Source: Archaeoglobi archaeon JdFR-42 (lineage in GTDB: Archaea; Halobacteriota; Archaeoglobi; Archaeoglobales; JdFR-42). From it: a stretch of DNA of 47,177 nucleotides. The notes beneath the pieces are model-generated. The model searched no databases. It worked only from the letters and a program-made list of their open reading frames with translations, and was not told the DNA's origin. A program made the translations under genes and the position numbers. How positions within the stretch are numbered: position 1 is the first letter of the stretch; each line of letters begins with the position of its first letter. Positions 42,746 to 47,177 of the stretch are shown here, piece after piece. The DNA lies in contig MTND01000014.1 of assembly GCA_002010305.1 (NCBI GenBank), positions 1 through 47,177 on the forward strand, written 5' to 3'.

Positions 42746-43140
42746 ACAGCCAGTTACTCTTTTGTGATCTGGTTTTCTGATCATTGTATTAAACGCTGGA
42801 TTTGTGTTCTGGGAGGGATTCATACCATCTTTTAAATCTTTTGAAAGATCGAAATAAGCTAATAACACATTTAAAAGAATTATTGTAACAAAACAGAAAT
42901 GGATTTCTTCCCAGAAATCTCTTTGTTATTCTTTATAACCAGTTAAGTAGTGTTGGGTCAGGTGATATTATTTATAACCTTAACAAGATTAAAACCTTGA
43001 ACTTTTATATCCCAATAGATATTTTTCATATATTAAGAATAAAAATAAAAATTAATTGATAGGATAACGTAAACTATATGTAAAACGAAAATGATATATA
43101 TTGATAGTTTAAAAATCGCGTGAATGCTGGAGGCGTCGGT
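42746..43140. other. 395-base AT-rich region upstream of the RiPP-like genes
   Basis: No supported coding frame. It holds two direct copies of TTTATAACC (about 42932-42940 and 42971-42979), a TTTTATATCCC (about 43003-43013) and the best-placed promoter ATGATATATATTG (about 43091-43103). The sequence GGAGG at 43129-43133 is the ribosome binding site of the peptide gene. The density of TATA-like elements suggests more than one promoter. Confidence 0.45.
43091..43133 (+). promoter_or_regulatory. Promoter and ribosome binding site of the peptide/PqqD-like pair
   Basis: CGAAAATGATATATATTG (from about 43086) resembles BRE plus TATA, placing a transcript start near 43118. GGAGG at 43129-43133 is 7 bases from the ATG at 43141, an unusually clear SD for this window. 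Confidence 0.5.
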
Positions 43141-43248
43141 ATGGAAAACGGAGAAGAGAAGAGAGAGCAAAAGAAAAAGTATGAAGTGCCTAAAATAGAA
43201 GAATGGACAAGCTTATCTGGATTAATTGACTCAGCAGCTGGATTATGA
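43141..43248 (+). CDS. Putative RiPP precursor peptide (35 residues)
   Basis: A short gene too small for most callers. The N-terminal half is a highly charged leader (MENGEEKREQ...); the middle reads KKKYEVPKIEEW, close to the Y-x2-P-x-[L/I] motif bound by PqqD-like RRE domains in lasso-peptide and related leaders. The end, SGLIDSAAGL, is uncharged apart from one Asp, with Gly, Ser and Ala, like a core peptide. It has a strong SD and is followed 3 bases later by a PqqD-like gene. There is no Cys, so not a ranthipeptide or sactipeptide type. Confidence 0.62.
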   Translation: MENGEEKREQKKKYEVPKIEEWTSLSGLIDSAAGL

Positions 43249-43251
43249 GAG

Positions 43252-43542
43252 GTGTTCTATGTGGAAACTATAAAGCTCAGAAGTGCTATAACGGTTGAAG
43301 AGAAGGCCACATTTACAACAAGAGAAAGTGAACGAGGGCTGATACTCTTGGATATGAACAGAGACAAGATGTATGAAGTAAATGAGTCTGGATCAGTGAT
43401 TATTAAGCTTATTCAAAAAGGCGCCAGGTTAGAGGATATCATAGATGCGTTATTTGAAACTTATGAGGTTGATATGGATACCTTAAAAAAAGATGTTAAT
43501 GAGTTTTTGAAGAAACTGAAAGAATTTAATTTAATAAGTTAA
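43252..43542 (+). CDS. Stand-alone PqqD-like (RRE) protein
   Basis: 96 residues with the PqqD fold: ERGLILLDMNRDKMYEVNES for the beta hairpin, GSVIIKLIQKGARLEDIIDAL, FETYEVDMDTLKKDVNEFLKKLKEFNLIS for the three helices. PqqD-like proteins bind leader peptides and present them to RiPP maturases. The start may be GTG 43252 or GTG 43261; GAGAGG (43247-43252) suits the second. It follows the precursor-like gene immediately. No radical SAM, cyclase, YcaO or protease gene is in the window. A T-rich terminator follows. Confidence 0.82.
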   Translation: MFYVETIKLRSAITVEEKATFTTRESERGLILLDMNRDKMYEVNESGSVIIKLIQKGARLEDIIDALFETYEVDMDTLKKDVNEFLKKLKEFNLIS

Positions 43543-43767: not shown

Positions 43768-45465
43768 ATGTCCCTCATTGAGATCAAAGGATTGACTAAG
43801 CGATACCATCTTACGTCCGGGACTTTTAAAATTGCTCTTGATGACGTATCTTTTGAGGTTAAAAATAGAGAGATTCTAGGTGTTATCGGAAAAAGTGGTA
43901 GTGGAAAATCCACACTTTTGAGAATAATCAGAGGAATTGAGCCATTTGATAGGGGACATATCAGAATCGGTGATGTGAGGCTTACTCCTGATTCCCCAAA
44001 ATATGAATTTGAGAAAGTGAAAAGTAAGTCTGCCTATCAGTATCAAAGATCCTTTAGTTTATGGGGATTAACAACTGTTGAAAACATAATGAAAAGGCTG
44101 TATGCATTAAAAACCGGAGATGAAACCTTAGACCTACCACCTGAAGATTCAAAGGAATATGAAGAGTTGAAAGGAGAGTCGATACGATACTTAAGAATTG
44201 TTGGACTGGACCATAAATGGTATCAATCTGCTCATACATTAAGCGGAGGAGAGAAGCAAAGGCTTGTACTCGCAAGACAGCTAGTGCTAAATCCTGAAAT
44301 TCTTCTGCTAGATGAACCGTTGAGTATGGCCTCTCCTGACAAGAGAGTCGATATAATTGAGTTAATTAGAAATCTCAGAAATGAACATGATATGGCAGTA
44401 ATAATGGTATCTCATTTACCTGAAATACATGAAAAATTATCTGATCGGTTGGTTCTATTAGATGATGGTAGGATTAGTTTCGACGGAAATGTATCTGAAG
44501 GAATTGACCTGTTTCTTTCAGAGCTTGAACCTCCATTAACTTTGAAACCATTGAAAAAGAAAGAGCCGGCATTTATAGTAGAGAATGTAAAAAAGAAGTA
44601 TTTTCACTATAACTTAAAACAATTATTTGAGTTAGGTGTTGAAAAATTAGAAGTGTTTAGGGGGGAGATACTTGGTATTATCGGACCTTCAGGTAGTGGA
44701 AAAACTGTTCTAGTGAGATTGCTATCAGGTCTGGAGTTACCAAACGAGGGCAGGATTACATTTATAGGGAAAGAGTTTACAGCAATAATCAGCGAATTAG
44801 GCCTTCTTAATGCTCTTGCAAGACAAAGAATCGGACTAGTGAGACAGGAGTTTGATTTGACCTATTATGCCTCAATTCTTGATATCATATTAAGTAAAAA
44901 AAGATTGGCTACCCTTACAGAAGATGATATTAAGAAAATAATTGAGGACTTTGATCTGACTGATAAAAGTGTAGATTTCTTATTGAGGTTGGCACATCTT
45001 CCACCAGAGATACAAAGGGATATTGTTTATCAGATCGGTTTGAACGAAGACGAATTGGCAGACTTTTTTTTGTCGTTACCCTATGTCCCTGTAGATCATA
45101 AAGATGTGAAAAGCTTATTTTATCAGTTAGAGCTGCCTGCTGATATTTTGGAAAGACGAGCATTTGAGCTTTCAGGTGGTGAGAAAATAAGAGTCGCTAT
45201 TGGAGTAGAAATGGCTATGAACCCAGATATTTTAATATTAGATGAACCTTTTGCAGATTTAGATCCGATCACCACTAGGATGCTATGTAACGTATTAAAA
45301 ACTCTAAACAATAAACTCGGTATAACTATGCTTATAGTGAGCCATAACAGAACTGCATTGAAAGAAATCGCTCATAGAATAGTGAAGGTAGAAGATGGAA
45401 CCCTGTTAGGGGAAGTTGAGGATGAAACTGAGCTTGAAAATCTGTTAAAAACAAAAGCTAAGTGA
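43768..45465 (+). CDS. Component A2-like tandem ABC ATPase (AtwA family, divergent paralogue)
   Basis: 565 residues with two soluble ABC modules and no membrane spans. First: GVIGKSGSGKSTLLRIIRG, Q-loop region [48 protein letters not shown]. Second: GIIGPSGSGKTVLVRLLSG, FELSGGEKIRVAIGVEMAMN, DILILDEPFADLDPIT. A2 drives ATP-dependent reductive activation of methyl-coenzyme M reductase. Here the second module has about 50 extra helical residues between its Q-loop and LSGG, absent in the canonical A2 nearby. The McrD-like gene follows after 12 bases, which supports the MCR link. Confidence 0.8.
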   Translation: MSLIEIKGLTKRYHLTSGTFKIALDDVSFEVKNREILGVIGKSGSGKSTLLRIIRGIEPFDRGHIRIGDVRLTPDSPKYEFEKVKSKSAYQYQRSFSLWGLTTVENIMKRLYALKTGDETLDLPPEDSKEYEELKGESIRYLRIVGLDHKWYQSAHTLSGGEKQRLVLARQLVLNPEILLLDEPLSMASPDKRVDIIELIRNLRNEHDMAVIMVSHLPEIHEKLSDRLVLLDDGRISFDGNVSEGIDLFLSELEPPLTLKPLKKKEPAFIVENVKKKYFHYNLKQLFELGVEKLEVFRGEILGIIGPSGSGKTVLVRLLSGLELPNEGRITFIGKEFTAIISELGLLNALARQRIGLVRQEFDLTYYASILDIILSKKRLATLTEDDIKKIIEDFDLTDKSVDFLLRLAHLPPEIQRDIVYQIGLNEDELADFFLSLPYVPVDHKDVKSLFYQLELPADILERRAFELSGGEKIRVAIGVEMAMNPDILILDEPFADLDPITTRMLCNVLKTLNNKLGITMLIVSHNRTALKEIAHRIVKVEDGTLLGEVEDETELENLLKTKAK

Positions 45466-45477
45466 AATGGTGGTTAA

Positions 45478-45846
45478 ATGGAGGAAAAATTCAGGAAAGA
45501 AGTTCTAATATTCCCTGAAAGGTTGCTTAGTGACGATACAGTGGTTTACTTTCTCCGAGAATTAAAAAATGTCAGAGGTATAACCAAAATAACATTTCAT
45601 GGTCCAACGTACTATCGTAGAACTTTGGAAGTAGATGAGGAAAGTAGTTTCAAACTGGATGTTAAAGTTGGGAGGATCTGGATTGAAATAGATGATGATG
45701 AAGTAATAGGAAAAATCAAAGAGGTGGCAGAGAGAACATTAATGGTTCCATACCTGATTGATGTGGGCCGATATACAAAATACAGGAAAACCCTAACAGA
45801 TCATCTCCAAAAAAATAGGGGATTAGATGATATAGGAAAACTGTAG
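45478..45846 (+). CDS. McrD-like protein
   Basis: 122 residues: EVLIFPERLLSDDTVVYFLR, GITKITFHGPTYYR, LDVKVGRIWIEIDDDEVIGK, VPYLIDVGRYTKYRKTLTDH. The paired VGRIWIEI and DVGRYTKYRKTLTDHL strings are those of McrD, the MCR operon protein thought to bind apo-MCR during assembly. It is shorter than typical McrD (about 150-170 residues). It follows the A2-like gene and ends 2 bases from the converging A2 gene, away from any mcrBGA in this window. Confidence 0.82.
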   Translation: MEEKFRKEVLIFPERLLSDDTVVYFLRELKNVRGITKITFHGPTYYRRTLEVDEESSFKLDVKVGRIWIEIDDDEVIGKIKEVAERTLMVPYLIDVGRYTKYRKTLTDHLQKNRGLDDIGKL

Positions 45847-45848
45847 GA

Positions 45849-47177
45849 TTATCCCATTGCAGTCTCGACTTCTCTCATTGTTTCTACAACTTTCGTCGGG
45901 TCTCCAATTTCTACTATTTTTCCAGTTCTCATCAATAATGCCCTATCACATACCATATCAATGAAGTCCATGTCATGAGAGACAATAATATATGTCTGGC
46001 CAAGTCTATCTCTGGCATATCTAATATACTCAGCTATTTCAGCTCTGGTAATCGGATCAGCAGTTCCTGTTGGTTCATCTAGTATAACCACTTTGGGGTC
46101 ATTCATCAGCACTCTTGCTATAGCGATTCTGTGTCGCTCTCCTTCGCTTAACTGTTCAGGAAGCATGTACAATATTTTATCAATCTCTTCGTCTGTAAAT
46201 CCTACTGCTTGAAGCACTTCATTGACTTTCATTGCAACCAGTTCAGCAGGAAGTTCAGTCTTCAAAGCCCCTTCTAAGTTCTCATATATGTTCTTTAAAG
46301 GACTAAGTGTATATTCTTGGTATAGAATCGCGATATTGGGTGTCACCATCCCTTTCCCTTCCGGTCCCACCATTCTCATGTCTACCCACTGACCATCTGA
46401 TCTTATCCTTAGTAATCCGTGGGATGGCATGACATGTCCCGCGATCATTTTAGAGATCGTTGTCTTCCCACTTCCACTCACACCAACTATCCCAAAAATC
46501 TCTCCTTCATGAATTTCAAATTCAACGTTATCAACTGCTCTTATCAAACCCCTATCAAAAGTGTAGTAGTATTTTTTGACTCCTTTGAAAGCGATTAATG
46601 GTTTATCTACCACTTTCCTTACCTTTTTAATTTTTTTCACTTTCTGGAGGAATTTATTTGCCACTTCTTGGGAATTGCCTTGGTCAGTAACCTTACCCTT
46701 TTCGAGCAATATAGCCTCTGATGTCAATTCTGCAACTGCTTCAGGCCAATGAGATGTTATCACCATAGACATGCCCTTGTTTATTTCATTTTTAATCACT
46801 TCATGTACCGCTTGAGCGGTTATTGGGTCTAAGGTTCCAGTAGGTTCGTCAGCCAGAATTAATATTGGGTTTTTTGCGATACACATTGCGAAAACAACCC
46901 TCTGTTTTTCCCCTCCACTGAGGTCTCTCGCTACGTGAGTAATTCTATGAGTAAGCTTAACTTGTGATAATAATTTAACGGCAAGGGGTCTTTGCATATG
47001 TTTAGGTATTCCAGCATCATCGAGAGCCAACATTACGTTTTCAATAACTGGCAGTTCTCCATATAATGAGAACTGCCGTTGCGTCATCATACTCATTCTG
47101 TCGTATATGTTCTTACCAATCCTCGTTCCATTATCCAGCTCGTTCCAGTAATCAACCTCCTGAGTATGCATGGTCTT
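45849..47177 (-). CDS. atwA: Component A2 of the MCR activation system (AtwA), N-terminus beyond the window
   Basis: About 440 residues are visible. The first module lacks its Walker A (beyond the right edge) but shows [58 protein letters not shown]. The second is complete: [76 protein letters not shown], with Glu in place of the second Gly of LSGGE. Canonical A2 has about 530 residues, so roughly 90 are missing. It converges on the McrD-like gene. The ATG at 47171 is internal. Confidence 0.85.

Follow-up and report, generated by a model that had tools for sequence, protein, structure and literature searches.

A conserved precursor-like peptide and PqqD-like protein co-distributed with divergent alkyl-CoM reductases in archaea

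A PqqD-like protein together with a peptide bearing a Y-x2-P-x-I motif is the characteristic sign that a leader is recognised for modification. The gene pair described here shares with the lasso B1/RRE systems (TbiB1, PDB 5v1u/5v1v; 6jx3; YxxPxL leaders) a stand-alone RRE of ~90 residues and a Tyr-x2-Pro-x-aliphatic leader, and with the PQQ (PqqA/PqqD) and mycofactocin (MftA/MftB) systems a short precursor, a PqqD-like carrier and a possible cofactor role. Its genomic neighbours and co-distributed genes are members or paralogues of the MCR activation system as set out in PMC12176620 (A2, McrC, Mmp3/7/17), a paper in which a keyword search found neither a PqqD-like protein nor a precursor peptide.

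The window, which is the whole stretch of 47,177 nucleotides of Archaeoglobi archaeon JdFR-42 DNA that was analysed, carries on its plus strand an ORF (43141-43248) that translates as MENGEEKREQKKKYEVPKIEEWTSLSGLIDSAAGL followed by a stop codon, and that is preceded by a GGAGG Shine-Dalgarno sequence (43129-43133, +). A putative archaeal promoter with a BRE/TATA-like sequence, TAAAACGAAAATGATATATATTGATA (43081-43106, +), precedes the start of the peptide by 34 nt; this 26-nt block is identical in the window and in the sister genus (genome G056), whereas the non-coding sequence 3' of pqqD is unconserved between the two. At the equivalent place G056 encodes MNRENGKKQKKRYEEPRIEEWTSLSKLIDSAAGL, and the peptide, the PqqD-like protein (71% identical) and a diverged A2-like ATPase follow there in identical order; on the upstream side of the peptide, the genes of G056 are unlike those of the window. 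Comparison of the two peptide genes gave pS = 0.93, with synonymous differences saturated, and pN = 0.16, and between two Alkanophaga species the peptide has a dN/dS of ~0.02, so that, as judged from codons, this 35-residue precursor-like peptide is under strong purifying selection. Given the counterpart in place in G056, the codon-level selection and a distribution over the same eight genomes as the PqqD-like protein (below), a chance frame is excluded, and the initial annotation, which had read the frame as a gene with a strong Shine-Dalgarno sequence and had looked to relatives for conservation and codon-level selection, was correct.

Downstream lies the gene for the PqqD-like stand-alone RRE (43261-43542, +), which matches the PqqD domain (PF05402, 3e-17) with 63.1 bits against a curated cut-off of 23.4, and which is the sole PqqD-family gene above cut-off in the window's genome (99.6% complete). 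Its identity and its end at 43542 agree with the initial annotation, but the spacing of 3 bases proposed there does not: the likely start is the GTG at 43261, which is separated from the peptide stop by 12 nt that include GAGGTG; a GTG only 3 nt past the stop is less likely because the G056 homologue aligns from MEIYKL. Since the peptide and PqqD share one frame, the two were modelled as a TGA read-through fusion, with each part scored separately. In the AF2 model of this fusion the RRE was well modelled, leader residues 11-20 had a mean pLDDT of 89 and the linker was disordered. Its best PDB matches by Foldseek were the TbiB1:leader complex and another lasso B1:leader complex, and the nearest NCBIfam models of the PqqD-like protein are also of lasso B1 types, with scores below cut-off. 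The fusion model supports, but does not prove, docking of the leader on the PqqD-like protein.

The string YEVPKI, previously remarked on as resembling a recognition sequence, lies within the leader segment KKKYEVPKIEE (43171-43203, +), which conforms to a leader, KKxYxxPx[IV]xE, common to 12 precursors (10 of the phylum and two from Helarchaeota). K11, K12, Y14, P17 and E21 are invariant across 10 aligned precursors, and position 19 is Ile or Val. Short frames upstream of the PqqD relatives in genomes of the phylum read MAEGAKKPYVEPKIEEWQSLSSIMDGAGGL, MEDDKEADKKKKPYIAPKVEEWQSLDKMMSGAGGL, MDTEEGKKKKEYEAPKISEWKSINKMMDGASGL and MSEEVKKKPYVPPKIEEWKSLGSIMDGAGIDGTSLM. The C-terminal tail of the window's peptide, a putative core, is WTSLSGLIDSAAGL (43204-43245, +), and 13 of its 14 residues are identical in G056. 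Over the family the tails are 12-18 residues long and variable in sequence, with the leader conserved, and most end in Gly-Leu; the alignment revealed no conserved Tyr or Cys in them, some contain no Cys, Ser or Thr, and those of Alkanophaga are without the conserved Trp and Ser. The precursor profile located two tandem diverged precursors in Alkanophaga at a second locus, between gyrB and a malic-enzyme gene. In G080 the precursor (L010) has a tail extended to DGAGIDGTSLM, and that of its congener ends in DGAGGL.

The PqqD, precursor and A2b (see below) profiles were compared on a sample of 394 genomes of the phylum. A two-sequence PqqD profile found full-length relatives in six further genomes, and the precursor profile matched 8 of the 394, namely the same 8 that hold the PqqD subfamily: the window's genome, G056, G189, G158, G182, G129, G306 and G080. 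Besides the window's own family, these carriers represent Ca. Syntrophoarchaeum, Ca. Alkanophaga/Alkanophagales and two further families, with CSMAG_2992 among the named records. Weak precursor matches in G253 and G382 lay inside larger frames and were taken as chance. Nowhere in the sample did the PqqD subfamily occur without a precursor peptide, the Alkanophaga precursors being those at the second locus; the constancy of pairing on which the initial annotation depended is therefore borne out. The co-occurrence has a Fisher p of ~1e-16, which overstates independence, since the test treats genomes as independent and the eight carriers are partly related by descent.

A diverged A2-like ABC ATPase, A2b (43768-45465, +), begins 0.2 kb downstream of pqqD and is followed by a gene for an McrD-like protein (45478-45846, +; Pfam MCR_D 3.9e-22, passing the cut-off), as had been proposed, and on the minus strand by canonical component A2 (45849-47171, running off the window). 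Of the two A2-type ATPases in the initial annotation, the minus-strand protein qualifies, with 547 bits against the cut-off of 517 for TIGR03269 (component A2 equivalog), but A2b, with 243 bits, does not, and by its profile score is a diverged A2 paralogue. Orthologues of A2b are found in exactly the eight pair carriers (488-1227 bits; the next best score in the 394 genomes was 440). The anticipated linkage of the pair to A2 and McrD in other genomes thus holds as co-distribution with A2b, but not as adjacency, which is confined to the window's family. Elsewhere the neighbours of the pair are Mmp6-Mmp5-Mmp15 (G306), Mmp8 (G182) and LarC (G129), with nothing relevant in the pair neighbourhoods of G189 and G080. 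Overall, genes for MCR activation, F430 synthesis or nickel are frequent neighbours of the pair. Where A2b lies away from the pair, it is beside CfbA (G182, G158, G129 and G080) or near an McrD-like gene (G189), and it is plausibly a candidate ACR-dedicated activation ATPase. In three lineages a QueG/reductive-dehalogenase-like Fe-S protein is encoded close to mcr or pqqD loci (L088:3650-4480, L096:3433-4272, L180:5962-6813).

Of the two McrA genes in the window's genome, both divergent, one is long-form (620 aa). Relatives of this AcrA at no less than 51% identity were found only in G056, G189, G158, G182, G129 and G306, all of them pair carriers, and in the McrA tree these sequences form one clade (support 100/99), whose sister group comprises Helarchaeota and Methanoliparum-like sequences, the latter label being assigned by inference. 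The peptide and the PqqD-like protein form a conserved pair that is inherited together, and the pair is co-distributed with A2b and, in seven of eight carriers, with one long-form AcrA clade. The remaining carrier, G080 (of the genus of G129), has the pair, four other McrA copies and no long-form AcrA; three of these copies could be placed in the tree, where they join the window's second McrA or sit on a neighbouring long branch. Universality is limited by the Ca. Methanoliparum-like genomes, in which profile searches found long-form ACR but no pair. The pair was absent from ~55 related ANME-1 genomes, and in the phylum scans no genome whose MCR is all of the ordinary kind had it; the connection with MCR that had been suspected thus stands for divergent ACR but not for ordinary MCR. 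Long-form acrA lies apart from acrB and acrG in L091/L092, and the most expressed acrA of Alkanophaga has been described as separated from acrB and acrG (PMC10322722). Three families of ~370, 123 and 180 aa adjoin long-form AcrA (L087:11941-13053, L087:13463-13831, L087:7080-7616 and homologues); they have no Pfam or NCBIfam match and are probably ACR-specific accessory proteins, the 370-aa family being present beside every long-form ACR locus examined, Helarchaeota included.

Better evidence than the Fisher tests is the recurrence of the pair in Asgard archaea. When the PqqD profile was run on four genomes of the order of Helarchaeota G394, a genome first picked by a weak match in a different protein (L051), full-length members were found in G394 and G396, with the precursors MSDEKPKEKKEYVKPEIKEKGSLGDKLSADGFDVGL and MATEPTKKKKKYEKPKIEERKGITDTMKSDSFGSVF, respectively, directly upstream. 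In G394, the genome that the Helarchaeota AcrA result covers, the pair is accompanied by two long-form AcrA at 50%, and in G396 it lies 3-9 kb from genes for the McrA glutamine methyltransferase, CfbB, a CfbC-like protein, CfbD and CfbE. In our view, the reading of the pair as an RRE and its leader peptide with a tie to ACR is well supported.

The known systems differ from this pair chiefly in their enzymes. A lasso system was rejected because the window's genome has no match to the B2 leader peptidase (PF13471); no lasso cyclase C (asparagine-synthetase-like) or transporter was noticed on reading the genes of the window and of the other neighbourhoods examined, the short tail is without the lasso core layout, and the RRE falls below the lasso model cut-offs. 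Unlike PQQ and mycofactocin, the pair stands apart from any maturase in the window's genome, its tails have no conserved Glu/Tyr or Val-Tyr core, and no PqqE/MftC-type enzyme is common to the carriers: SPASM radical-SAM proteins (PF13186) are present in them, but among the proteins fetched and clustered no orthogroup is shared by all eight. The ACR-linked protein c1, also considered as a maturase, matched nothing in Pfam or NCBIfam, and the quality of its model did not permit a structure search. In both Alkanophaga species a gene for a SagB-type peptide dehydrogenase (TIGR03605) adjoins pqqD (L096:8816-9385, L095:10339-10908); the L096 protein scores above the cut-off, and the dehydrogenase is a candidate maturase for the Alkanophaga lineage only. 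No YcaO or azoline logic of SagB systems was noticed for the pair, and among the loci examined the SagB gene was seen only in Alkanophaga. Because these searches found no common maturase, the new RiPP or peptide-carrier system first suggested for this locus is well supported as an RRE plus leader peptide, whereas modification of the peptide, and its role, are what we infer.

On balance we lean toward the view that the pair is a leader-peptide/RRE module of archaea with divergent ACR, and that its product serves the ACR system, a role suggested by co-distribution and gene neighbourhood. As happens in lasso and PQQ systems, the KKxYxxPx[IV]xE segment would join the PqqD-like protein as an additional beta-strand, and the PqqD-like protein would then present the tail of 12-18 residues, typically with its Gly-Leu end, to a modifying enzyme whose gene lies at another locus. 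Most likely the product would help to mature or activate either ACR itself or the F430 cofactor of ACR; alternatively, it might be a redox cofactor for the step from alkyl-CoM to acyl-CoA. It is also conceivable, though we propose it only tentatively, that divergent ACRs, unlike methane-specific MCR, depend on a ribosomal, RRE-delivered, modified peptide, as cofactor or as assembly or activation factor; if so, this would be a new RiPP class at work in primary metabolism that has travelled with ACR from one archaeal phylum to another.

Given that no common maturase was found by the searches for PF13471 in the window's genome and PF13186 in the carriers, and that the pair adjoins A2/McrD or Mmp6-5-15, the peptide might instead remain unmodified, as a structural or regulatory factor that the PqqD-like protein, acting as chaperone or clamp, brings to ACR or its activation complex. 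Such a peptide would be likened to McrC or DUF2098, small subunits of the MCR activation complex, in which small proteins do take part (PMC12176620). We consider this unlikely, since a Y-x2-P-x-I peptide with a PqqD-like protein signals leader recognition for modification, and a conserved leader with a more variable tail follows RiPP logic. A peptide-derived redox cofactor like mycofactocin or PQQ, serving the conversion of alkyl-CoM to acyl-CoA or beta-oxidation with no direct part in ACR maturation, would suit carriers that are multicarbon-alkane lineages (the ANME-1 without the pair are also without ACR), the Alkanophaga SagB-type neighbour, and the description of the alkyl-CoM to acyl-CoA conversion in Alkanophaga as unknown (PMC10322722). 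However, the neighbours are mostly ACR, F430 or Mmp genes rather than beta-oxidation genes, and no Tyr or Cys of the kind that goes into PQQ and mycofactocin is conserved in the tail, which makes this cofactor improbable. Least probable by far is an ordinary antimicrobial or signalling RiPP, lasso-like for example, that merely tracks lineages by descent. The RRE does resemble lasso B1 proteins, and according to RRE-Finder the lasso-type RREs that lack lasso enzymes number in the thousands (PMC7470986), but the missing B2 peptidase in the window's genome, the fact that no transporter or cyclase was noticed next door, the match with A2b in eight of eight carriers and the presence in Asgard archaea, including ACR-bearing G394, have already weakened this proposal.

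In the anaerobic oxidation of oil and gas, the maturation and activation of ACR and the conversion of alkyl-CoM to acyl-CoA are open questions (PMC10322722, PMC9081873), and a full-text literature search found no paper linking PqqD with Syntrophoarchaeum, or coenzyme PQQ synthesis with alkyl-coenzyme M. Because they are conserved and track divergent ACR across Halobacteriota and Asgard archaea, the peptide and its RRE, accompanied in the Halobacteriota carriers by a plausibly dedicated A2-like ATPase, are concrete candidates for the missing parts. The pair could matter for making active ACR in other hosts, and it would be a RiPP-type module for core metabolism, like PQQ or mycofactocin, and not an antibiotic.

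Other PqqD-like proteins were met in the same searches. For the wider contig scan a subset of profile A3 served as query, the full profile being too diverse; most of the genome-contig matches (L039-L054) were other PqqD-like proteins without the peptide, and a scan of viral contigs gave no match. A PqqD match in the ANME-1 genome G039 was set aside as unrelated: the PqqD domain there continues as a radical-SAM protein that a frame break interrupts (L007:9756-11062), behind a 246-aa unknown protein, and constitutes a different RiPP-like locus. Other Halobacteriota PqqD loci (L016, L023 and L026) have a conserved short frame unlike the present peptide, MKEYETPSVETYGTVEEKTNWWDHDDGYGKW[SD], which is probably a RiPP precursor in its own right.
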